Shown here piece after piece: positions 11,349-33,719 of a stretch of DNA of 61,824 nucleotides. The stretch is from Candidatus Rifleibacteriota bacterium (GTDB lineage Bacteria; Muiribacteriota; Ozemobacteria; Ozemobacterales; Ozemobacteraceae), in assembly GCA_012520995.1 (NCBI GenBank), contig JAAYNI010000014.1, positions 1-61,824 on the forward strand. Reading direction: 5' to 3'. A model generated the notes under the pieces. The model did no database searches, was not told the origin of the DNA, and was given only the letters and a program-made list of their open reading frames with translations. Within the stretch, counting starts at the first letter, position 1; each line of letters opens with the position of its first letter. A program made the position numbers and the translations under genes.

Positions 11349-14138
11349 ATGACAAAATACGTTTATACTTTTGGAGCCGGAAAAGCTGAAGGCAATGCTG
11401 GAATGAGAGACCTCTTGGGCGGCAAAGGAGCCAATCTTGCTGAAATGAACTGCATTGGCGTTCCAGTACCGGCAGGTTTTACCATTACTACAGAAATGTG
11501 CGATGTTTATTACAAAAACAACAAGGCTTATCCTCCTGCCTTGAAAGAACAGGTTGCTGCGGGCATCAACTATGTTGAAAAGGTTATGAACAAAAAGTTT
11601 GGCGACAAACACAATCCGCTTCTTTTGTCCGTAAGATCGGGCGCCAGAGTTTCAATGCCCGGCATGATGGATACAGTTCTTAATCTCGGTTTGAACGACG
11701 AAACAGTTCAGGGCATGATCGAAAGCACCAACAATGAAAGATTTGCTTGGGACTCCTATAGAAGATTCGTTCATATGTACGGCGATGTTGTTATGGGCAT
11801 GAAACCTCAGTCCAAAGACGCGAAAGATCCTTTCGAAACCGTTATGGAAGAACTCAAAAATGAGAACGGAATCAAACATGACAATGAAATGACAGCTCCT
11901 ATGTTGAAAGAGCTGACAAACCGCTATAAAAAACTTATTAAAAATACTTTGGGCAAAGAATTCCCCAATGATCCTATGGAGCAGCTCTGGGGAGCCATAG
12001 AAGCAGTATTCGCTTCTTGGATGAGCGAAAGAGCTATTGTCTACCGCAGAAGAGAAAACTTCTCTGATGACTGGGGCACAGCTGTTAACGTTCAGGCAAT
12101 GGTTTATGGCAATATGGGCGAAAAATCAGGCACTGGCGTTGCTTTCACCAGAAACCCAGCTACAGGCGAAAACGTATTCTACGGCGAGTATCTCATCGAC
12201 GCTCAGGGTGAAGACGTTGTTGCCGGTATCAGAACTCCTATGCAGGTTTGCCACAGAGGCTCTACTGCTTGGGCAAAAGAAAACGGCATTTCCGAAGAAG
12301 AAAGAAAAGAAAAATATCCTTCTCTTGAAGAATATATGCCTGAAGTCTATAACCACTTGGTTGATGTTTATAAAAAACTTGAAAACCACTACAAAGACAT
12401 GCAGGACGTTGAATTTACTTTTGAAAACGGCAAACTCTGGATGCTTCAGACCAGAACAGGCAAGAGGACTGCTCCTGCAGCAGTGAAAATAGCTGTTGAT
12501 ATGGTTAATGAAGGCTTGATTAGCGAAACTGTTGCTATTCAAAGAATTAATCCTGCCGATCTTGACCAGCTTCTCCACCCCGTATTTGCTCCCAATGCAA
12601 AGAGAGAGCGCTTCGCAAAAGGTCTTCCCGCATCACCTGGCGCTGCCGCAGGAAGAGTCGTGTTCAACGCTGAAGACGCTATGGAATGGAACAAGCGCGG
12701 CGAAGACGTTATATTGGCTCGCATCGAAACCAGCCCTGAAGATATCGCAGGCATGGACGCAGCTGTAGGCCTTATGACCAGCAGAGGCGGAATGACTTCT
12801 CACGCGGCTGTTGTCGCAAGAGCTTGGGGCAAATGCTGCGTAGCAGGATGCAGCGAAGTCAATATAGACTATGTCGCTCGCAAAATGACTGCTAACGGCG
12901 TGACAGTATCCGAAGGCGACTGGATTAGCCTTGACGGTTCTACTGGCGAAGTAATGCTTGGCAAAGTTGAAACTGTAGAGCCCAGCCTTTCCGGCGATTT
13001 CGGCAAAATTATGAATTGGGCTGACAAACTCAGACAGATTGATATCAGAACCAACGCTGATAGTCCTGAAGAAGCAATTACAGCCAAAAACTTCGGCGCT
13101 CAGGGAATCGGTCTTTGCAGAACAGAACATATGTTCTTCGGCGGAGACAGAATTAAGCTTATGCGCAAGATGATTCTTGCTGATGACGAAGCAGGCAGAA
13201 GAGAAGCTCTCAAGGGTCTGCTTGCATATCAGACTGAAGACTTCTACGGCATACTCAAGGCTATGGAAGGCTATCCTGTTACAATCAGAACTCTGGATCC
13301 TCCTCTGCACGAATTCGTTCCTCACGAAGCAGTTCAGCAGGAAGAGCTTGCCAAAGAAATGGGCGTTTCAGTAGAAAAGATCAAAAACAAGATCGACTCT
13401 CTTGCAGAGTTTAACCCCATGCTTGGACACAGAGGCTGCAGACTTGGAATTACCTATCCTGAAATTACCGAAATGCAAGCCACCGCTATATTTGAAGCTG
13501 CATGCAAACTCACAGCTGAAGGTCATAAGGTTTACCCTGAAATCATGATTCCTCTCATCGGAACCGAAGCTGAATTCAAAAACCAGAAGGCTGTTGTTCA
13601 GAAAGTAGCTGACAAGACTTTGGCTAAATACAATCTTGAAGGCAAACTTAACTATCTCATCGGAACCATGATCGAAATACCCAGAGCCTGCTTGGTAGCT
13701 GACAAGATCGCAGCTAATGCCCAGTTCTTCAGCTTTGGCACCAACGATTTGACTCAGATGACATTTGGTTTCAGCAGAGACGACGCTGGCAAGTTCCTTG
13801 AAGATTATTATGCCAAAGGCATTCTCAAAAATGACCCCTTCCAGACCATTGACCAGGAAGGCGTTGGCCAGCTGATAGCTAAAGGCGTTGAGCTTGGCAG
13901 AAAATCCAGAAACGATCTTAAGATCGGCATCTGCGGAGAGCACGGCGGTGAACCCGAATCAGTCATGTTCTGCCATAAAGTTGGCTTTGACTATGTAAGC
14001 TGCTCGCCCTTCAGAGTTCCTATAGCTAGACTCGCAGCAGCACATGGCGCTCTCAAGTATGCGGAAGAAAGAGAAAAGAACCTCAAAGCTCAGAACCATA
14101 CGCCTATCAAGGCTAAAGCTTCTGAAGCAGCTAACTAA
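11349..14138 (+). CDS. ppdK: Pyruvate, phosphate dikinase
   Basis: PPDK interconverts pyruvate + ATP + Pi with PEP + AMP + PPi. In many anaerobes it works in glycolysis or at the PEP-pyruvate node. The 929-residue length and order are standard: N-terminal ATP-grasp (DLLGGKGANLAEM, RSGARVSMPGMMDTVLN), the swivelling phosphohistidine domain (GGMTSHAAVVARAWGK, phosphorylated His in TSH), and the C-terminal PEP-binding barrel (LCRTEHMFF, FSFGTNDLTQM, GICGEHGGEP with the catalytic Cys). GGAGG precedes the ATG. nusB follows after 25 nt and may share the transcript. Confidence 0.98.
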   Translation: MTKYVYTFGAGKAEGNAGMRDLLGGKGANLAEMNCIGVPVPAGFTITTEMCDVYYKNNKAYPPALKEQVAAGINYVEKVMNKKFGDKHNPLLLSVRSGARVSMPGMMDTVLNLGLNDETVQGMIESTNNERFAWDSYRRFVHMYGDVVMGMKPQSKDAKDPFETVMEELKNENGIKHDNEMTAPMLKELTNRYKKLIKNTLGKEFPNDPMEQLWGAIEAVFASWMSERAIVYRRRENFSDDWGTAVNVQAMVYGNMGEKSGTGVAFTRNPATGENVFYGEYLIDAQGEDVVAGIRTPMQVCHRGSTAWAKENGISEEERKEKYPSLEEYMPEVYNHLVDVYKKLENHYKDMQDVEFTFENGKLWMLQTRTGKRTAPAAVKIAVDMVNEGLISETVAIQRINPADLDQLLHPVFAPNAKRERFAKGLPASPGAAAGRVVFNAEDAMEWNKRGEDVILARIETSPEDIAGMDAAVGLMTSRGGMTSHAAVVARAWGKCCVAGCSEVNIDYVARKMTANGVTVSEGDWISLDGSTGEVMLGKVETVEPSLSGDFGKIMNWADKLRQIDIRTNADSPEEAITAKNFGAQGIGLCRTEHMFFGGDRIKLMRKMILADDEAGRREALKGLLAYQTEDFYGILKAMEGYPVTIRTLDPPLHEFVPHEAVQQEELAKEMGVSVEKIKNKIDSLAEFNPMLGHRGCRLGITYPEITEMQATAIFEAACKLTAEGHKVYPEIMIPLIGTEAEFKNQKAVVQKVADKTLAKYNLEGKLNYLIGTMIEIPRACLVADKIAANAQFFSFGTNDLTQMTFGFSRDDAGKFLEDYYAKGILKNDPFQTIDQEGVGQLIAKGVELGRKSRNDLKIGICGEHGGEPESVMFCHKVGFDYVSCSPFRVPIARLAAAHGALKYAEEREKNLKAQNHTPIKAKASEAAN

Positions 14139-25677: not shown

Positions 25678-25723
25678 GAGAAGCTCAGAACTAAAAATAT
25701 TTTAGTTCTGAGCTTCTCTTTTT
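25678..25723 (+). terminator. Strong intrinsic terminator
   Basis: A perfect 19-bp stem (GAGAAGCTCAGAACTAAAA and its complement) has a 3-nt loop and is followed by TTTTTATTTG. It ends the transcript of the giant membrane protein and separates it from the BMC operon. Confidence 0.85.
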
Positions 25724-25908: not shown

Positions 25909-26967
25909 ATGAGAGACAAGCCTTTGCTAATTGTAACGCAGAATAAACCGCTTTTTTTCGAAGAGCCCGCTTCGCTTTCTTGCGACGATTGTTATTTTTG
26001 CTCTCCGGAATATCTCTCATATATTTCTTACTCCAAATATTCAGCCATTGTCATAGATTCTTTTTCCCTTTTGCAACACTTGAGAAAAGTTGCTTTGGGA
26101 ATAAGAGATGATGTTGTAACCTCGGCTTTATGGAATATATTTGCGGATCTTGCATCTCCCGATGTCTATGTTCTTTCGGAGCGTATGCAGCCTCCGACGC
26201 AAGACATGAGAGATTTAGGCATATCCTATGTGACTCTTTCGAAATTGAAGGAAATAGGAACTCCTCAAAAGTTTCCTGAGCCGCTCAAAGAATCATCCGA
26301 GTTTCCGGAAGAGTTTCGCAAAAGCTTGCTTACAGCAGATGATATCAGGGCTATGAGCCTTAAAGGACAAACTTTCATACCCGCAGGCGCAAGGTTGACT
26401 TCATGGGCAGAAGAAGTGGCTGCTACTCTTAAAATGCGGCCCATGCCGGAAAATGACTTTTTCTTTATTTACCCTGTTTTTTCAAATTCTTTGAATGAGC
26501 TTGAATCCTTGCGTGAAGATCTTTTTCAAAAATCTTCCGCTTGTTCAAATCTTTTGTTCTTATTGACTCCGCTTTATTTGCCTGTTTTCTGTGAGCTTTA
26601 TCCGTCATTGGCTAAGAAAACTCTCTCGACATCAATTCATTGGGAAGAGAAGGGGGCCTATACAGGTGAGGTCTCAGCTGACATGCTTTCTTCGCTTGGA
26701 TGCTTTGGAGCATTGGTTCCTGACTCTAAGCCGTACAAAGAAAACTTTTCTAAAGCCCTTTCGTTGGCTAATTCCAAGAGTCTTAGGATTTTTAGCAGAT
26801 TAAAGCTTGCCAAGGCTGAAAGCTGTGATATAATACATGAGGAAAAGAATAACACTTTTTCGCCTCTGATGCTTTATAGCAGAGACGAAATAACCCTAGA
26901 TGCTTTGCCCGAATCCGGAGCTGTTCTGGCAGATAGCAGTTTGTTAGCTTCAATATGTAGAAAGTAA
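25909..26967 (+). CDS. BMC-operon fusion protein: flavoprotein-like half plus degenerate triosephosphate-isomerase-like half
   Basis: First gene of the microcompartment operon, 352 residues from the ATG at 25909. A longer frame to 25795 would translate intergenic repeat. Residues 1-115 resemble a Flavoprotein-type Rossmann domain (PLLIVTQNK, YSAIVIDSFSLLQHLRKVALG). Residues 139-175 (LLTADDIRAMSLKG, GARLTSWAEEVAATL) match the C-terminal motif of the flavoprotein at 6449. The remainder follows triosephosphate isomerase in order: a strand, LLFLLTPLYLPVF, then GAYTGEVSADML (the TIM signature), and finally LMLYSRDEIT...ESGAVLADSSLL like the last two strands. The TIM lysine (NWKM) and histidine (HSERR) positions are not conserved (FIYPVFSN; PDSKPY). 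It is therefore probably non-catalytic, perhaps a ligand-binding or scaffold part. Confidence 0.6.
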   Translation: MRDKPLLIVTQNKPLFFEEPASLSCDDCYFCSPEYLSYISYSKYSAIVIDSFSLLQHLRKVALGIRDDVVTSALWNIFADLASPDVYVLSERMQPPTQDMRDLGISYVTLSKLKEIGTPQKFPEPLKESSEFPEEFRKSLLTADDIRAMSLKGQTFIPAGARLTSWAEEVAATLKMRPMPENDFFFIYPVFSNSLNELESLREDLFQKSSACSNLLFLLTPLYLPVFCELYPSLAKKTLSTSIHWEEKGAYTGEVSADMLSSLGCFGALVPDSKPYKENFSKALSLANSKSLRIFSRLKLAKAESCDIIHEEKNNTFSPLMLYSRDEITLDALPESGAVLADSSLLASICRK

Positions 26968-26976
26968 GAGAAAAAC

Positions 26977-27699
26977 ATGATTGACGAAACTCAGGTGAAA
27001 GCTGTTGTAGCCGATGTTTTAGAAAAGTTTAACATTAAAGGCAATGTGGCCGACGGTTTACAAAAACTTAATGTTAAAGAACATGTGAATGAGGTTTTAC
27101 AGAATTTAGGCATAAAAGGAAAAACCTCGACAGGTAAGGCTCCTGCAGGAGTCAGTAACCGACATGTCCATCTTTCTCAAAATGATTTGGAAACAATGTT
27201 TGGCGAAGGTCATCAACTGACTCAGATGAAAGCGCTTTCTCAGCCTGGACAATTCGCTGCTGAAGAAACCTTGCATATTGTTGGGCCAAAAGGGGCTATC
27301 GAAAAGGTGAGAGTTCTAGGTCCAACCAGAAAAGAAACTCAGGTGGAGATCTCCATGACTGACAGCTTTAAGCTTGGCATTAAAGCTCCTATTCGCAACT
27401 CGGGCGATCTGGATGGAACTCCTGGTTGCACCTTGGTGGGTCCTAAAGGTTCTGTAATCCTTTCTAAAGGTGTTATAGTAGCAGCAAGACATCTGCATGC
27501 CAACAAAGCGGAAGCGGAAGCGCTGGGATTGGTTGATAATGAATATATAACTGTGAAATCCAGCGGTCCCAGAGGAACTCTTTTTGAAAACGTATGGGTG
27601 AGAGTCAGTGACGCATGTGCGCTTGACTTCCATATAGATACGGATGAAGCCAACGCTGCCGGTATTAAAAACGGCGACTTGGTAGAAATTATAAAATAG
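26977..27699 (+). CDS. pduL: PduL-type phosphate acyltransferase with N-terminal encapsulation helices
   Basis: PduL converts acyl-CoA and phosphate to acyl-phosphate and CoA inside microcompartments, recycling CoA for the aldehyde dehydrogenase. The core has the zinc-binding SNRHVHLS and VAARHLHANKAEAEALGL, present once each as expected. About 55 extra residues at the N-terminus form three short amphipathic helix units in a row (VKAVVADVLEKFNI, VADGLQKLNV, VNEVLQNLGI). Such helices act as encapsulation peptides in known BMC enzymes; three in tandem is unusual. It starts 9 nt after the fusion gene. Confidence 0.92.
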   Translation: MIDETQVKAVVADVLEKFNIKGNVADGLQKLNVKEHVNEVLQNLGIKGKTSTGKAPAGVSNRHVHLSQNDLETMFGEGHQLTQMKALSQPGQFAAEETLHIVGPKGAIEKVRVLGPTRKETQVEISMTDSFKLGIKAPIRNSGDLDGTPGCTLVGPKGSVILSKGVIVAARHLHANKAEAEALGLVDNEYITVKSSGPRGTLFENVWVRVSDACALDFHIDTDEANAAGIKNGDLVEIIK

Positions 27700-27739
27700 T
27701 AAAAAACATTATTAAATGTGATATTTGCAGGAGGTTACC

Positions 27740-28039
27740 ATGCAAGAAGCTCTCGGAATGATAGAAACTCGCGGTTTGACAGCCCTTATAGAAGCAAGTG
27801 ACGCTATGGTTAAAGCAGCCAACGTTACGCTTGTAGGCTGGGAAAAAATTGGTTCAGGTTATGTAACCGCATTTGTAAGAGGCGATGTCGCCGCTGTTAA
27901 AGCAGCTACCGATGCAGGCGCAGCAGCAGCGAAAAAAATCGGCGAACTGGTATGTGTTCACGTTATTCCTCGCCCTCATTCAAATCTTGATGATGTAATG
28001 CCCATCAAAGAAATGATGGCGGCTGCCGCTAAAAAATAA
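27740..28039 (+). CDS. BMC-H hexameric shell protein
   Basis: A single BMC domain of 99 residues ([20 protein letters not shown], then [15 protein letters not shown]) that would tile the flat faces of the shell. The pore loop is KIGSGYV. It is the only BMC-H gene in the operon. ATG at 27740 has AGGAGG 6 nt upstream, so the TTG at 27725 is rejected. It ends with VIPRPH and a short Met/Ala/Lys tail. Confidence 0.95.
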
Positions 28040-28053
28040 TTGAGGTCATTTAA

Positions 28054-28335
28054 ATGATACTGGGTCGCGTTTGCGGTACCGTAGTCTGCACTCGTAAAGA
28101 TGAGAGTTTGGTCGGTTTGAAACTTTTGGTGGTCGAAGAACTTGCTTGCGACACCAAAGAACCGACAGGCAGCTATGTTGTTGCAGTTGATGCGGTAGGA
28201 GCGGGAGCTTCTGAACATGTTCTTGTAGTAGCAGGAAGTTCAGCCCGATTGGCACAGCGCACCTTGCAAAAGCCGGTTGACGCGACAATAATAGCTATTG
28301 TGGACAGTGTGGTCTTCGACGAAGAACGCAGCTGA
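28054..28335 (+). CDS. BMC-P pentameric vertex protein (EutN/CcmL family)
   Basis: The 93-residue product begins MILGRVCGTVVCTRK, has LLVVEELAC and DAVGAGASEHVLVVAGSSAR, and ends with the usual DATIIAIVDSVVF. Pentamers of this family cap the vertices of the shell. It sits 14 nt after BMC-H. It is followed by a hairpin before the dehydrogenase gene. Confidence 0.95.
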   Translation: MILGRVCGTVVCTRKDESLVGLKLLVVEELACDTKEPTGSYVVAVDAVGAGASEHVLVVAGSSARLAQRTLQKPVDATIIAIVDSVVFDEERS

Positions 28336-28400: not shown

Positions 28401-28429
28401 GGCCTCGTAAACCAGAATGGAGTGTTTTG

Positions 28430-29833
28430 ATGACAGTTTCGCCATATGATTTAAATCTGATTGTCAGGGAAGTTTTAAGCAGACTTAATGTGGATTCCCC
28501 TGCTGCAAAACCGGCAAGCTTGCCGCACGGCGTTTTTGAAACGGTCGATGAAGCTGTGCAAGCTGCATCTTTGGCGCAAAAACAGTTGGAAGATTTGCCC
28601 TTGGCTGCAAGAGCCAAGATGATAGAAAATATGCGCAAGAGATCCTCGGAGCAAATAACTAAGCTCTCTGAAATGGCTCACCAAGAGACAAAGTTTGGAA
28701 GAGTCGATGACAAGATTCAGAAGCATAAACTTGTTATAGAAAAAACTCCCGGGATTGAAGATATTCATCCTGTAGCCTTTACAGGCGATTCAGGACTCAC
28801 ATTGACAGAATGGGCGCCTTACGGAGTAATAGGTGCTATAACGCCTTCAACTAATCCGACAGGCACTGTAATTTGCAATGCGATTGGTATGATTGCGGCA
28901 GGAAACTCGGTGGTTTTTGCTCCCCATCCCGCGGCAAAAAATTGCTCCCAGTATGCAATGAGCATGTTGAACGATGCAATAGTAGAAGCAGGCGGACCCG
29001 CCAATCTTTTGACTACTGTCAGAGAACCCAGCATTGATAATGCTCAGAAGATTATGACTCACCAGGATATAAGGCTTCTTGTGGTGACAGGTGGCCCTGG
29101 AGTTGTGGATCAGGCGTCAAAATCCCGCAAAAAATTTATAGCCGCAGGTCCTGGAAATCCGCCTGTAGTAGTAGACGAAACGGCCGATATTCCAAAGGCG
29201 GCAAAAGATATTATTGCAGGTGCGAGCTTCGACAATAATATACTTTGCATAGCTGAAAAAGAAATTATTGCAGTAGAATCTATCGCTGACCAGCTCAAAA
29301 AAGAGATGACTAAGAGCGGCGCTTATGAAGCTTCACCAGCTGAAATCAGACTTCTTGAAAAGGCTTGTATTGATCCTAAAAACGGTTCTCCCAGCAGAGA
29401 TTGTGTTGGCAGAAACGCTTCTGTGATCATGGAAAAAATCGGAGTCAGAATTCCCGAAGATATAAGAATTATCCTCTGCGAAGTTGGCCCGGATCATCCT
29501 TTTGTGTTAACAGAGCTATTGATGCCTGTTATTCCTTTTGTCAGAGTCAGAGATGTGTACACGGCTATTGACTTGGCTGTTAAGGTAGAGCAGGGCAACA
29601 GACATACAGCTATAATGCACAGCAAGAACGTTTCCAATCTTACTTTGATGGGTCGAAAGTGCGATTGTTCCATATTCGTTAAAAACGGTCCAAGTTATGC
29701 GGGTCTTGGAATGTGCGGCGAAGGCTATACAACCTTGACGATAGCTACTCCCACAGGTGAAGGCGTAACCAGCGCAAAATCTTTTGCAAGATATAGACGC
29801 TGTGCCATGGTAGACGCGTTCAGAATAGTCTAA
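28430..29833 (+). CDS. CoA-acylating aldehyde dehydrogenase (PduP/EutE-like)
   Basis: This enzyme oxidises an aldehyde with NAD+ and CoA to acyl-CoA inside the compartment. Motifs are GVIGAITPSTNPTGTVICN, VVTGGPGVVDQA, AGPGNPPVVVDETADI and the catalytic Cys273 in NNILCIAEKE. The first 18 residues (SPYDLNLIVREVLSRLN) form an amphipathic helix of the encapsulation-peptide type. I chose ATG at 28430, with GGAG 8 nt upstream, over the TTG one codon before. With PduL it forms the aldehyde to acyl-CoA to acyl-phosphate route, probably acetaldehyde to acetyl-phosphate. Confidence 0.93.
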   Translation: MTVSPYDLNLIVREVLSRLNVDSPAAKPASLPHGVFETVDEAVQAASLAQKQLEDLPLAARAKMIENMRKRSSEQITKLSEMAHQETKFGRVDDKIQKHKLVIEKTPGIEDIHPVAFTGDSGLTLTEWAPYGVIGAITPSTNPTGTVICNAIGMIAAGNSVVFAPHPAAKNCSQYAMSMLNDAIVEAGGPANLLTTVREPSIDNAQKIMTHQDIRLLVVTGGPGVVDQASKSRKKFIAAGPGNPPVVVDETADIPKAAKDIIAGASFDNNILCIAEKEIIAVESIADQLKKEMTKSGAYEASPAEIRLLEKACIDPKNGSPSRDCVGRNASVIMEKIGVRIPEDIRIILCEVGPDHPFVLTELLMPVIPFVRVRDVYTAIDLAVKVEQGNRHTAIMHSKNVSNLTLMGRKCDCSIFVKNGPSYAGLGMCGEGYTTLTIATPTGEGVTSAKSFARYRRCAMVDAFRIV

Positions 29834-29851: not shown

Positions 29852-31162
29852 ATGAAAGATTATACCAATTCTGGCATTACAGGTTGCGGCGGAGCAGGTT
29901 TTCCTGCTCATATCAAACTCGCATCAAAGGGCGTTGAAACACTTATAGTCAACGCTGCGGAATGCGAGCCGCTTTTGCATAAGGATAAGCTTTTATTGCT
30001 TAATGAAACCGAGGCTTTCTTTAAAGGTCTTTCCATTGCTCAAAAACAAACTGGAGCAGCGGTCGTCAAAATAGGCATTAAAGCCAAATATCCGGAGCTG
30101 ATAAAAAAGGTTGAGGCTTCCATAGCCGCACCTAATGTCAGTGTCTTGCCTCTTGGTGACTTCTATCCCGCGGGAGATGAGTATGAGCTGGTCTATGAAG
30201 CGACAGGCAAGCTGATACCTTTCGGCGGTATTCCCATCAATGTCGGATGTGTCGTCATGAACGTTGAAACCTTGGTTTTGATTGGCTCAGAAAAGCCCTT
30301 TACCCATAAATGGCTTACGATCACGGGCGAGGTTCCAAGTCCTGTTACAGTAAAAGTGCCAGTTGGAGCGGCGATTCCCGAAGTTATGTCGCTCGCAGGC
30401 TTCAATGGTTCTTTTTCTGGCAAAACCTTGATAGATGGCGGCCCTATGATGGGCAAAGTTGTCGCTGAACCTGAGAAGGCTATTGTCAAAAAGACTACAG
30501 GCGGTTTGATTCTCCTTGATAATGAACATCCGCTTATCAAGAAAATGCTGAGAAGCGAACAGAAAAATACGGCTATTGCTCGTTCAGCTTGCGATCAATG
30601 TACTGATTGCACCGAGATTTGTCCAAGAGCATTGCTTGGTTATCCAGTTAAACCCCATAAGGCTATGCGCTCAGCTCAGTTCTCTAAGCTTGAAAACAGT
30701 GAGTATACTAAGGAATCCATCTTTTGCAGCGAATGTGGACTCTGTTCTAACTACTCTTGTCCGGAATCGTTGACTCCCCGAGAAATGTGCATGAAAGCTA
30801 AAAAACTGCATTTGTCTAACGGTGTCAAACAAAAAGATTTCCTTGGAGAGCCTCATGTGCACCATATGCGTTGGGCTAGGAGAGTCACAATTGAAAGACT
30901 CATTAAAAGACTCGCTCTTATCGATTATGACAGAGATGCCCCTGTGATTAAGACCAATAAACGTTTTGAAAGAGTCGTTTTGCCTCTCAGAATGCACATA
31001 GGAGCACCTGCTTCTCCGGTTGTTCAGCCAAATCAGCAGGTTCAAGAAGGTGATCTTATAGCTGCGATTCCCGAAGGTAAACTGGCGGCGGCTCTGCATG
31101 CTTCTATTTCAGGCAGAATAGAGTCTGTGACAAATGAAGCCATAGTGATTTCTAGAGGTTGA
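29852..31162 (+). CDS. pduS: PduS/RnfC-like electron-transfer flavo-iron-sulfur protein
   Basis: PduS-type proteins oxidise NADH and pass electrons out through the FeS-bearing trimer shell protein. The N-terminus has the flavin/nucleotide motif GCGGAGFPAHIKL. Two cysteine sets follow at about residues 248-300: CDQCTDCTEICP, and CSECGLCSNYSCP, which would hold 4Fe-4S clusters. The C-terminus carries a RnfC-type barrel-sandwich segment (PNQQVQEGDLIAAIPEGKL). The 436-residue length fits. The PduT-like gene follows after 4 nt, its expected partner. Confidence 0.9.
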   Translation: MKDYTNSGITGCGGAGFPAHIKLASKGVETLIVNAAECEPLLHKDKLLLLNETEAFFKGLSIAQKQTGAAVVKIGIKAKYPELIKKVEASIAAPNVSVLPLGDFYPAGDEYELVYEATGKLIPFGGIPINVGCVVMNVETLVLIGSEKPFTHKWLTITGEVPSPVTVKVPVGAAIPEVMSLAGFNGSFSGKTLIDGGPMMGKVVAEPEKAIVKKTTGGLILLDNEHPLIKKMLRSEQKNTAIARSACDQCTDCTEICPRALLGYPVKPHKAMRSAQFSKLENSEYTKESIFCSECGLCSNYSCPESLTPREMCMKAKKLHLSNGVKQKDFLGEPHVHHMRWARRVTIERLIKRLALIDYDRDAPVIKTNKRFERVVLPLRMHIGAPASPVVQPNQQVQEGDLIAAIPEGKLAAALHASISGRIESVTNEAIVISRG

Positions 31163-31166
31163 ATAA

Positions 31167-31724
31167 ATGAAAATAGCACGAAATGCCATAGGGCTTGTTG
31201 AACTGACAAGCGTAGCTGTAGGCTTCCGAACAACAGATGCAATGCTTAAAGCGGCTAATGTCGAGCTCGTGCTTGCCAGAACAGTCTGTCCAGGCAAATA
31301 TATTTGTTTGGTCTGGGGCGATGTGGCAGCAGTAGAAGCTTCAGTGGATGCAGGCATTGCTCAAGCTCAAGGCTATTTGGTAAATGATTTGGTGATTCCC
31401 AATCTCCATGAACAGATATATCCGGCTATGACAGCCACAGCTGAAGTAAACAATCCTGATGCTTTAGGTGTTCTTGAAACTTTCGACATAGTTTCCGCCG
31501 TAATAGCAGCAGATGCTGCAGTTAAAGCAGCTGATGTGCATCTTTGCGATCTGAGGCTAGCTATGGCCTTGGGCGGCAAAGCTTTTTTTACTCTCACTGG
31601 CAATGTTGCGGCAGTTGAAGCCTCCATAAAGGCTGGTCTGGAAGTGTTGCAAAACAAAGGCATGGCGGTTGAGTTCACTGTGATTCCAAGGCCTCGAAAA
31701 GAGCTTTTTCAAGAGTATATTTAA
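31167..31724 (+). CDS. pduT: BMC-T trimeric shell protein with FeS cysteine (PduT-like)
   Basis: Two BMC domains in one 185-residue chain (residues 5-90 and 98-178). Cys41 in TVCPGKY is in the position of the cysteine that holds a 4Fe-4S cluster at the three-fold pore of PduT. Together with the adjacent PduS this allows electrons to leave the lumen, regenerating NAD+ for the dehydrogenase. It is the only trimer shell gene of the operon. Stop and start spacing indicates co-translation with pduS. Confidence 0.93.
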   Translation: MKIARNAIGLVELTSVAVGFRTTDAMLKAANVELVLARTVCPGKYICLVWGDVAAVEASVDAGIAQAQGYLVNDLVIPNLHEQIYPAMTATAEVNNPDALGVLETFDIVSAVIAADAAVKAADVHLCDLRLAMALGGKAFFTLTGNVAAVEASIKAGLEVLQNKGMAVEFTVIPRPRKELFQEYI

Positions 31725-31751: not shown

Positions 31752-32225
31752 ATGCCTAAAATATTTATAGGAGCTGATCACGGTGGTTATCAGCTCAAAG
31801 AAGAATTAAAAAAACATCTTCTTTCAAAGGGATACGTTGTGGAAGACGTTGGAACCTACTCAGAGGCTTCGGTTGATTATCCTGACTTTGCTTATCTGGT
31901 AGCCAAAGCTGTAGCCCAAAATCCTCAAGTATTGGGAATAGTCATAGATGGAGCTGGAATTGGTTCTTGCATGGTGGCCAATAAAGTTCCTGGAGTAAGA
32001 GCAGCTTGCTGTAATGATTTATATACAGCTAAAAACAGCCGAGAGCATAATCATGCTAATCTGCTTACTATGGGCAGCATGGTTGTGGGCAAAGGCTATA
32101 TGATACAAATTGTAGATGCTTGGCTGAACACAGATCCGGCTCCTGGCCGCCATGCTAAGCGTGTTGCTAAAATGATGGAGTTTGAACATCTGGCACTAAT
32201 GCAGGGCGTAGAGGGTAGGGGGTAG
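31752..32225 (+). CDS. RpiB-like sugar-phosphate isomerase homologue with altered active site
   Basis: RpiB interconverts ribose-5-phosphate and ribulose-5-phosphate. This 157-residue protein keeps Asp9-His10 (GADHGG), His99 (SREHNHAN) and the phosphate-binding arginines (GRHAKRV). However, the catalytic Cys66 of the family is Asp66 and Thr68 is Ala68 (IVIDGAGIGS instead of LICGTGVGM). It may isomerise a different sugar phosphate or only bind one. RpiB homologues together with deoxyribose-phosphate aldolase mark SPU-type microcompartments. The last residues (GVEGRG) read into a G-rich intergenic repeat, so the C-terminus may have been altered by it. Confidence 0.85.
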   Translation: MPKIFIGADHGGYQLKEELKKHLLSKGYVVEDVGTYSEASVDYPDFAYLVAKAVAQNPQVLGIVIDGAGIGSCMVANKVPGVRAACCNDLYTAKNSREHNHANLLTMGSMVVGKGYMIQIVDAWLNTDPAPGRHAKRVAKMMEFEHLALMQGVEGRG

Positions 32226-32460: not shown

Positions 32461-32574
32461 TTGTTCTCTGTTTTTCAAATTTTAACGTTTCGGTTATTTA
32501 TGAGCTTCTTAAAGCAGTCGTTGGCTATAATTCTGAGTTGAAAGGTATTTCACTACTCTCTACGCCTTACCCCC
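32461..32574 (+). repeat. Main intergenic repeat, 3'-truncated copy (C)
   Basis: It contains the same blocks as the copy at 61573: a TTCTCTGTTTTTCAAATTTT-like lead, TTATTTATGAGCTTCTTAAA, GCAGTCGTTGGCTATAATTC and CACTACTCTCTACGCCTTAC. It stops where the deoB stop codon begins. The rest of the 32226-32573 gap holds only the terminator and AT-rich sequence. Confidence 0.65.
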
Positions 32575-33719
32575 TAAATCATGGACAGCCCTATGTCGTA
32601 TTTGACTCCCAAGAAGTCGGCTACGGTTGCGGCTACGTCTATAAACCCATCCCTGATTTTAAGGTCTTTGCCTGACATATTATGCTTGTAAACCAATACA
32701 GGCACAGCTTCTCTTGTGTGATCGCTCCCTCTGAAAGTCGGGTCGCAGCCATGGTCGGCTGTGATGATCAAAAGGTCGTCATCTTTCATAAGTTTCAAAA
32801 AGCCGCCTAGCCATTTATCAAAGGCTTCTAAGGCATTTTTATAACCTTCTGCATCGCGTCTGTGACCATATTTCATGTCCGTGTCTACCAGGTTGGTAAA
32901 AATAAAGCCTGAGTCAACCTTTTTTAAGGCTTCTTCGGTTTTTGTCATGCCATCGGCATTATCTACCGTTGTTACACTATGAGATACGCCTTCGCCTGCA
33001 AAAATGTCATATATTTTCCCGACACCGTAAGTGGTTATGCCTTTTTCCATCAATAGAGATAAAAGGTTTTTTGGCGGCTTCAAGCTGAAGTCATGCCTGT
33101 TCGATGTTCTTGTATAATTTCCGTCAGCTCCTATGAAGGGTCTGGCTATGACTCTTGCCGCACCCAAATCAGGCGGCTGAAGCATATCTCTGGCTGTTTG
33201 GCACATAGAGTAAAGCTCTTTGAGAGGTATAACTTCTTCGTGAGCGGCTATCTGAAATACTGAGTCGGCAGATGTATAAACAATCGGGTTGCCGGTTTTT
33301 ACATGCTCATCTCCTAAGTCGTTGATAATAACTGTACCGGAAGCTGGATAATTTCCTATGGTTTTTTTGCCTATGGCCTTCTCAAATTTTTCTATAAAAT
33401 CAGCAGGAAAGCCATCAGGGAAAGTGGGGAAGGGCTGTTTTAAAACAGTGCCCATCATTTCCCAGTGTCCAGTTGTAGTATCTTTGCCAGGAGATTTTTC
33501 ATACATTTTTCCAAAGTTGGCAGTAGGCTTAACAGCGGCTTGAACACCTTTGATTTCTGTTATATTGCCAAGACCCATTTTTTGCATATTAGGCAGGTTT
33601 ATTCCGTTAGAAACTTTAGCTATGTTTGGTATGGTTGATGCGCCTTCGTCGCCATATTGTGCCTGATCAGGCATATAGCCGACTCCTGCGCTGTCTAATA
33701 CTATACATATTGCGCGCAT
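32574..33719 (-). CDS. deoB: Phosphopentomutase
   Basis: DeoB interconverts (deoxy)ribose-1-phosphate and (deoxy)ribose-5-phosphate in nucleoside breakdown. The 381-residue protein has the alkaline-phosphatase-superfamily metal sites: CIVLDSAGVGYMPDA-type start (Asp8), DTTTGHWEMMG with the phosphothreonine, VDTDMKYGHRRD and ITADHGCDPTFRGSDHTRE. It is transcribed towards the BMC operon. Its product deoxyribose-5-phosphate is what a deoxyribose-phosphate aldolase would feed to an acetaldehyde-processing compartment, so the neighbourhood may be functional. No deoC, deoA or deoD is in the window. Confidence 0.96.
   Translation of the reverse strand: MRAICIVLDSAGVGYMPDQAQYGDEGASTIPNIAKVSNGINLPNMQKMGLGNITEIKGVQAAVKPTANFGKMYEKSPGKDTTTGHWEMMGTVLKQPFPTFPDGFPADFIEKFEKAIGKKTIGNYPASGTVIINDLGDEHVKTGNPIVYTSADSVFQIAAHEEVIPLKELYSMCQTARDMLQPPDLGAARVIARPFIGADGNYTRTSNRHDFSLKPPKNLLSLLMEKGITTYGVGKIYDIFAGEGVSHSVTTVDNADGMTKTEEALKKVDSGFIFTNLVDTDMKYGHRRDAEGYKNALEAFDKWLGGFLKLMKDDDLLIITADHGCDPTFRGSDHTREAVPVLVYKHNMSGKDLKIRDGFIDVAATVADFLGVKYDIGLSMI

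Follow-up and report, generated by a model that had tools for sequence, protein, structure and literature searches.

A triosephosphate isomerase-derived fusion protein as a possible adaptor at a sugar-phosphate-utilising microcompartment

The first gene of a microcompartment (BMC) operon in Candidatus Rifleibacteriota encodes a protein of 352 residues, here called Fus, that joins a pseudo-flavoprotein domain, a motif resembling the N-terminus of EutQ, and a domain derived from triosephosphate isomerase (TIM). The TIM-derived half has diverged at its former active site and has kept, in every homologue, the loop through which TIM subunits dimerise. It is a serious possibility, somewhat short of probable, that Fus is a non-catalytic adaptor, similar to EutQ and CcmM, that holds the cell's real TIM at the shell of a sugar-phosphate-utilising (SPU) organelle; the docking, the shell binding and the metabolic role are all inferred. 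Positions refer to the window, that is, the whole stretch of 61,824 nucleotides that was analysed (contig JAAYNI010000014.1).

Genomic context of Fus

Fus is encoded at 25909..26967 on the forward strand, with an ATG start that is consistent with the alignment of its homologues. The gene does stand at the head of a BMC operon, as proposed in an earlier note on this DNA. On its upstream side, a predicted intrinsic terminator of the preceding gene (25678..25718, +; a 19-pair stem, a 3-nt loop and a T tail) sets that gene apart from the operon. On its downstream side, and also on the forward strand, follow PduL phosphotransacylase with N-terminal encapsulation-peptide-like repeats (26977..27699; PF06130, E 7e-80), a BMC-H shell protein (27725..28039; PF00936), a BMC-P shell protein (28054..28335; PF03319), a CoA-acylating aldehyde dehydrogenase (AldDH; 28427..29833; PF00171, and NF011927 at E 1e-209), an RnfC/PduS-like flavin/Fe-S protein (29852..31162; PF01512, PF13375), a BMC-T (tandem BMC) shell protein with two PF00936 stretches (31167..31724), and the sugar-phosphate isomerase RpiB (31752..32225; PF02502, E 1e-51). 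Beyond these lies a DeoB-like phosphopentomutase, recognised by a match to the Metalloenzyme superfamily (32574..33719, reverse strand). Here it runs against the direction of the operon, whereas in those relatives whose locus includes the gene both point the same way. A PADLOC search returned no match.

The PduL gene and its junction with Fus have features of their own. PduL is 240 residues long, against about 214 in relatives, and its N-terminus (26977-27140) carries three encapsulation-peptide-like repeats in tandem, possibly a duplicated encapsulation peptide. Many Fus homologues share the C-terminal residues RKG (26940-26980 in the window), whose codons resemble a Shine-Dalgarno sequence for the closely following PduL gene and are likely to couple translation of the two genes. 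RKG was also considered as a C-terminal peptide signal, a reading set aside after inspection in favour of the Shine-Dalgarno explanation.

The gene set fits the SPU type of BMC (PMC8217296), with its aldolase apparently placed in a satellite locus. The two enzymes that define this type when found with shell proteins, AldDH and PduL are DeoC (PF01791) and RpiB (PF02502). Both are present, RpiB in the operon and DeoC elsewhere. Specifically, the sole DeoC-family match of the genome is on another contig, beside a BMC-P gene, and is a fusion of 539 residues (L163:10137-11756, contig C90) composed of an encapsulation-peptide (EP)-like helix (MDSIVEQIAKEVMMKLRD), a flavoprotein-like (PF02441-like) domain and DeoC. 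The flavoprotein domain is missing from DeoC in two relatives (L183, L184). In many relatives, further BMC-domain genes of divergent sequence (E 1e-7 to 1e-10) lie away from the main BMC locus, on other contigs (G015:C202, G038:C415, G037:C105, G021:C59, G016:C3, G010:C17, G003:C122, G011:C34 and G017:C29).

Distribution and divergence

Full-length homologues, 26-39% identical to Fus, were found in the window's own family. The first 14 all head the same gene order (14/14), with the run of genes shortened only at contig ends; two more homologues were added later, and Fus is present in 16/16 family genomes that have the main BMC-H gene. In other families of the phylum, SPU-like loci are present but carry no Fus, and a search for distant homologues there found none. 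No full-length match to Fus was found in samples of 82, 85 and 399 genomes from three other phyla, samples that included no known-positive genome. A scan of genome contigs with the Fus sequence alone returned only ordinary TIM genes, none of which is beside shell genes. Within the family, Fus is far more divergent than its surroundings: the 26-39% identity of Fus compares with mostly 55-76% for the neighbouring enzymes, and with mostly 55-92% for the neighbouring enzymes and shell proteins together.

A TIM-derived half that has lost its active site

The C-terminal half of Fus (residues 178-352; 26440..26964, +) is, by profile comparison, of TIM ancestry. Fus scores 26.9 bits with the Pfam TIM model (PF00121), whose curated cut-off is 20.1, and the model matches 15/15 homologues. 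With hhalign, the C-half matches TIMs of the same genomes at E 5e-11 and a set of 82 TIMs at E 3e-13, the latter alignment spanning strand 1 to helix 4. Thus, the degenerate TIM relation claimed in the earlier note is well above chance, and the profile-profile comparison that the note had suggested as a check recovers TIM. The claim of a TIM barrel holds for the first half of the barrel only (beta1-alpha4); the second half is undetectable, with no significant alignment between Fus and TIM past about residue 123 of the 250 residues of TIM. Hence, the assignment of a further stretch, GAVLADSSLL, to TIM is possible but unproven, because that stretch lies beyond the significant alignment. Against the NCBIfam TIM equivalog, Fus falls far below the cut-offs. 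In a structure model of the C-half, the first half is confident, the last 30 residues have pLDDT <50 and the mean pLDDT is 62; TIM structures are the first structural matches of this model, which was built with TIM rows in its alignment and is therefore biased towards TIM. An AlphaFold model of Fus made without an alignment had a pLDDT of 37.5 and was discarded.

In every homologue, other residues stand in place of the catalytic motifs NWKM and HSERR, in line with the earlier note's claim for Fus. Among 16 Fus C-halves, the column of K12 is mostly P or R, with Lys in at most 1/16, and the column of H95 holds A, D, N or P; N10, S96 and E97 have no aligned counterpart. Counterparts of E165 and of the phosphate loop (S211/G232/G233) were not detectable by profile-profile comparison. 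With N10, K12, H95, S96 and E97 gone or substituted, and the region of E165 and the phosphate loop undetectable, it is unlikely that Fus itself binds triose phosphate, and it can be said with high confidence that Fus is probably not an enzyme. The earlier note had suggested a pseudoenzyme that either binds triose phosphate or acts as a scaffold. The loss of catalytic residues, together with conservation of the interface loop and of the EutQ-like motif, favours the scaffold. A separate, intact TIM gene is present elsewhere in the genome, on contig C27 in the region of 12396-13130.

Retention of the dimer-interface loop

The part of TIM that has been kept is the dimer-interface loop 3 with the start of helix 3, which reads GA[FY]TGExSxxM...GA in Fus (residues 249-268; 26653..26712, +). 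GA[FY]TGExS is found in 16/16 Fus proteins, and its G, A, T, G, E and S, as well as the following M, are each identical in 16/16. Within the family, these 20 residues hold nine of the 13 positions that are invariant across the C-half (p 2.7e-7). A similar picture emerges from the 30 positions of the aligned region that are conserved in at least 95% of TIMs: Fus keeps 6/8 of those in loop 3/helix 3 and 0/22 of those elsewhere (Fisher p 5e-5), a contrast that is in part ascertainment, the alignment having been anchored on the loop-3 motif, and by which the within-family p value of 2.7e-7 is less affected. Since the loop-3 codons vary synonymously among Fus genes, the loop is under selection at the protein level.

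Loop 3 has a well-described role in TIM. It is the main element of an interface formed by residues of loops 1-4; each active site is lined by Thr75' and Gly76' from the partner subunit; deletion of the loop gives weakly active monomers, with activity down by 3 to 4 orders of magnitude; and helix 3 carries the socket Met, Met81 in the Trichomonas enzyme (PMC12874384, PMC4664265). In the mapping made here, the invariant M259 of Fus corresponds to the helix-3 socket Met.

The N-terminal half and the EutQ-like motif

The N-terminal half of Fus (residues 1-137; 25909..26319, +) is related to stand-alone flavoprotein-like paralogues encoded in the same genomes (hhalign E 1e-11, from about residue 39 through the EutQ-like motif). 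The flavoprotein-like half described in the earlier note is supported indirectly, by this homology and not by a direct match: a Pfam search of Fus itself gave no match to PF02441, and the paralogues match that family weakly, under the curated cut-off. The FMN motif PxSxNT, in the form PLSLN[TS] (PLSLN[TS]LAK in the paralogues), is found in 11/11 paralogues and 0/17 Fus, which makes FMN binding by Fus unlikely. The N-half is best described from these alignments as a degenerate flavoprotein that has lost its FMN motif, a feature that the earlier note did not mention. The note also overlooked the EutQ-like motif and the placement of DeoC, as a flavoprotein fusion, in a satellite locus.

Between the two halves lies a motif, LTADDIR...LTxWAxEVAxxL (residues 138-175; 26320..26433, +), that resembles the N-terminus of EutQ. 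It aligns with residues 2-42 of E. coli EutQ (hhalign E 9e-7) and is detected with an HMM at E 4e-5, compared with 0.65 for the best of 1000 shuffled sequences. The alignment of Fus does not extend past EutQ residue 42, so no counterpart of the EutQ H3/H4 part was detected; neither Fus nor its homologues match the cupin family PF06249, and Fus has no canonical N-terminal encapsulation peptide. EutT also matches the motif, weakly (E 0.004), and this was not taken as proof. In Salmonella, the Eut shell is bound by EutQ helices H1/H2 (deletion 9-41), the N-terminus of EutQ directs GFP to the organelle, and EutQ, as a dimer, links shell to cargo (PMC12487888). Having the motif does not have to imply binding to a shell, because a paralogue with the same layout of flavoprotein and motif occurs where no BMC gene was detected beside it. 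Specifically, a flavoprotein-like protein that ends in a EutQ-like motif (ITRDDV...TDLAREEA) is encoded at L149:9192-10526 and at L151, adjoining a formiminotransferase-cyclodeaminase-like gene. The loci retrieved around these two genes showed no BMC gene. N-half paralogues that resemble the L149 protein are found in nine other relatives.

What might Fus do?

A role as an adaptor best explains the combination of a loop that has been kept, a pocket for that loop that has been lost from Fus itself, a motif of the shell-binding type, and strict linkage to a shell operon. The TIM half would present loop 3 to hold the cell's real TIM, which would be the simplest partner with an intact pocket, and the EutQ-like motif would hold the resulting Fus/TIM complex at the shell. 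Glyceraldehyde-3-phosphate released by deoxyribose-phosphate aldolase could then meet TIM at the organelle, with disposal of the aldolase's other product. A more specific version is possible and clearly short of probable: Fus may pair with the housekeeping TIM, complete the TIM active site with the Thr and Gly of its loop 3, and tether TIM to the shell through the EutQ-like motif. There is a precedent for TIM in such a place. An SPU locus of Atribacteria encodes a real TIM, which shares 44% identity with a known TIM (PMC4207490), and TIM can therefore belong to the compartment of the SPU pathway.

The main rival to the adaptor reading is that loop 3 could serve homodimerisation of Fus. Fus would then be a structural core or assembly protein that organises cargo or shell without binding TIM. 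In favour of this are the retained interface loop, the lost active site, the strict linkage to the operon, and the parallel of EutQ, which also forms a dimer between shell and cargo (PMC12487888). However, the pocket that receives loop 3, made by loops 1 and 4 (NWK, HSER), has fully diverged while the tip of the loop is unchanged, which would be odd if loop and pocket were co-evolving. Homodimerisation is unlikely, though far from negligible. The homology between the N-half and its flavoprotein-like paralogues, and the frequent occurrence of flavin-binding families in BMC loci (PMC4207490), would also suit a flavin-dependent redox or sensory protein in which the TIM half is a fused regulatory or triose-phosphate ligand-binding domain. 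This is improbable given that the PLSLNT motif is absent from 17/17 Fus and that the residues with which TIM binds triose phosphate are lost or undetectable.

There are two further possibilities. Fus might have diverged into an enzyme whose new active site has nothing to do with TIM chemistry, and several residues outside loop 3 are indeed invariant, including L63, G64, D67, T142, T164, W166, E169, F217 and P232. Yet they form no conserved cluster of catalytic type besides loop 3, and Fus evolves much faster than the neighbouring enzymes, as expected of a scaffold, so the likelihood of a new enzyme is small. Alternatively, Fus could bridge aldolase and TIM, with its flavoprotein half co-oligomerising with the flavoprotein domain fused to DeoC and its TIM half pairing with TIM. 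The DeoC of the same genome does carry an EP and a PF02441-like domain, and the profile of the stand-alone paralogues links the N-half of Fus (at the E 1e-11 given above) to the DeoC fusion's own N-terminal domain (E 8e-8). Compared directly, however, the two N-terminal domains are only weakly similar (E 0.013), and one of the two relatives whose DeoC lacks the flavoprotein domain (G005) still has Fus; a bridge of this kind is very doubtful.

If the adaptor reading is true, an organelle recruits a glycolytic enzyme through mimicry of the enzyme's own partner subunit. This would bear on two open questions, namely how cargo that lacks an encapsulation peptide is chosen and how an organelle comes to share housekeeping enzymes. 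Fus also suggests that the shell-binding motif of EutQ is a portable module that is used outside Eut organelles, and it may serve as a naturally occurring tool to attach a glycolytic enzyme to a protein shell.

Comparison with known systems

A literature search found no report of a TIM-derived pseudoenzyme in a microcompartment. No precedent was found for the architecture of Fus, while adaptors that connect shell with cargo are already known (EutQ), as are adaptors that descend from a subunit of the cargo (CcmM). Fus shares with TIM (PF00121) the beta1-alpha4 half-barrel, loop 3 and the invariant helix-3 Met. It differs from TIM in having no NWK, no HSER and no detectable second half, and in being fused to a flavoprotein-like half; judged by its residues, it is no isomerase. 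With the N-terminal domain of EutQ it has in common a 38-residue motif that aligns with the shell-binding H1/H2 region. Fus lacks the cupin domain of EutQ and any detectable H3/H4 part, which binds encapsulation peptides, and has the TIM-derived half instead. A chain of profile matches would place the N-half in one fold family with the BMC-associated flavoproteins (PF02441-like; TIGR02536 in Eut loci) and with the EP-flavoprotein-DeoC fusion of its own genome, but the stand-alone BMC flavoprotein paralogues keep the PxSxNT motif that Fus has lost.

In beta-carboxysomes, the adaptor CcmM is built on a non-catalytic copy of a cargo-enzyme subunit, its modules resembling the small subunit of Rubisco. 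The cargo and the fold are different from those proposed for Fus, and the likeness would be one of the way of working, not of descent. The SPU locus of Atribacteria (PMC4207490) resembles the present case in placing TIM in a BMC locus of the SPU type. That locus encodes TIM itself, whereas in Fus the TIM-derived part is degenerate, amounts to half of the enzyme and is joined to other modules, and the intact TIM gene lies elsewhere in the genome.
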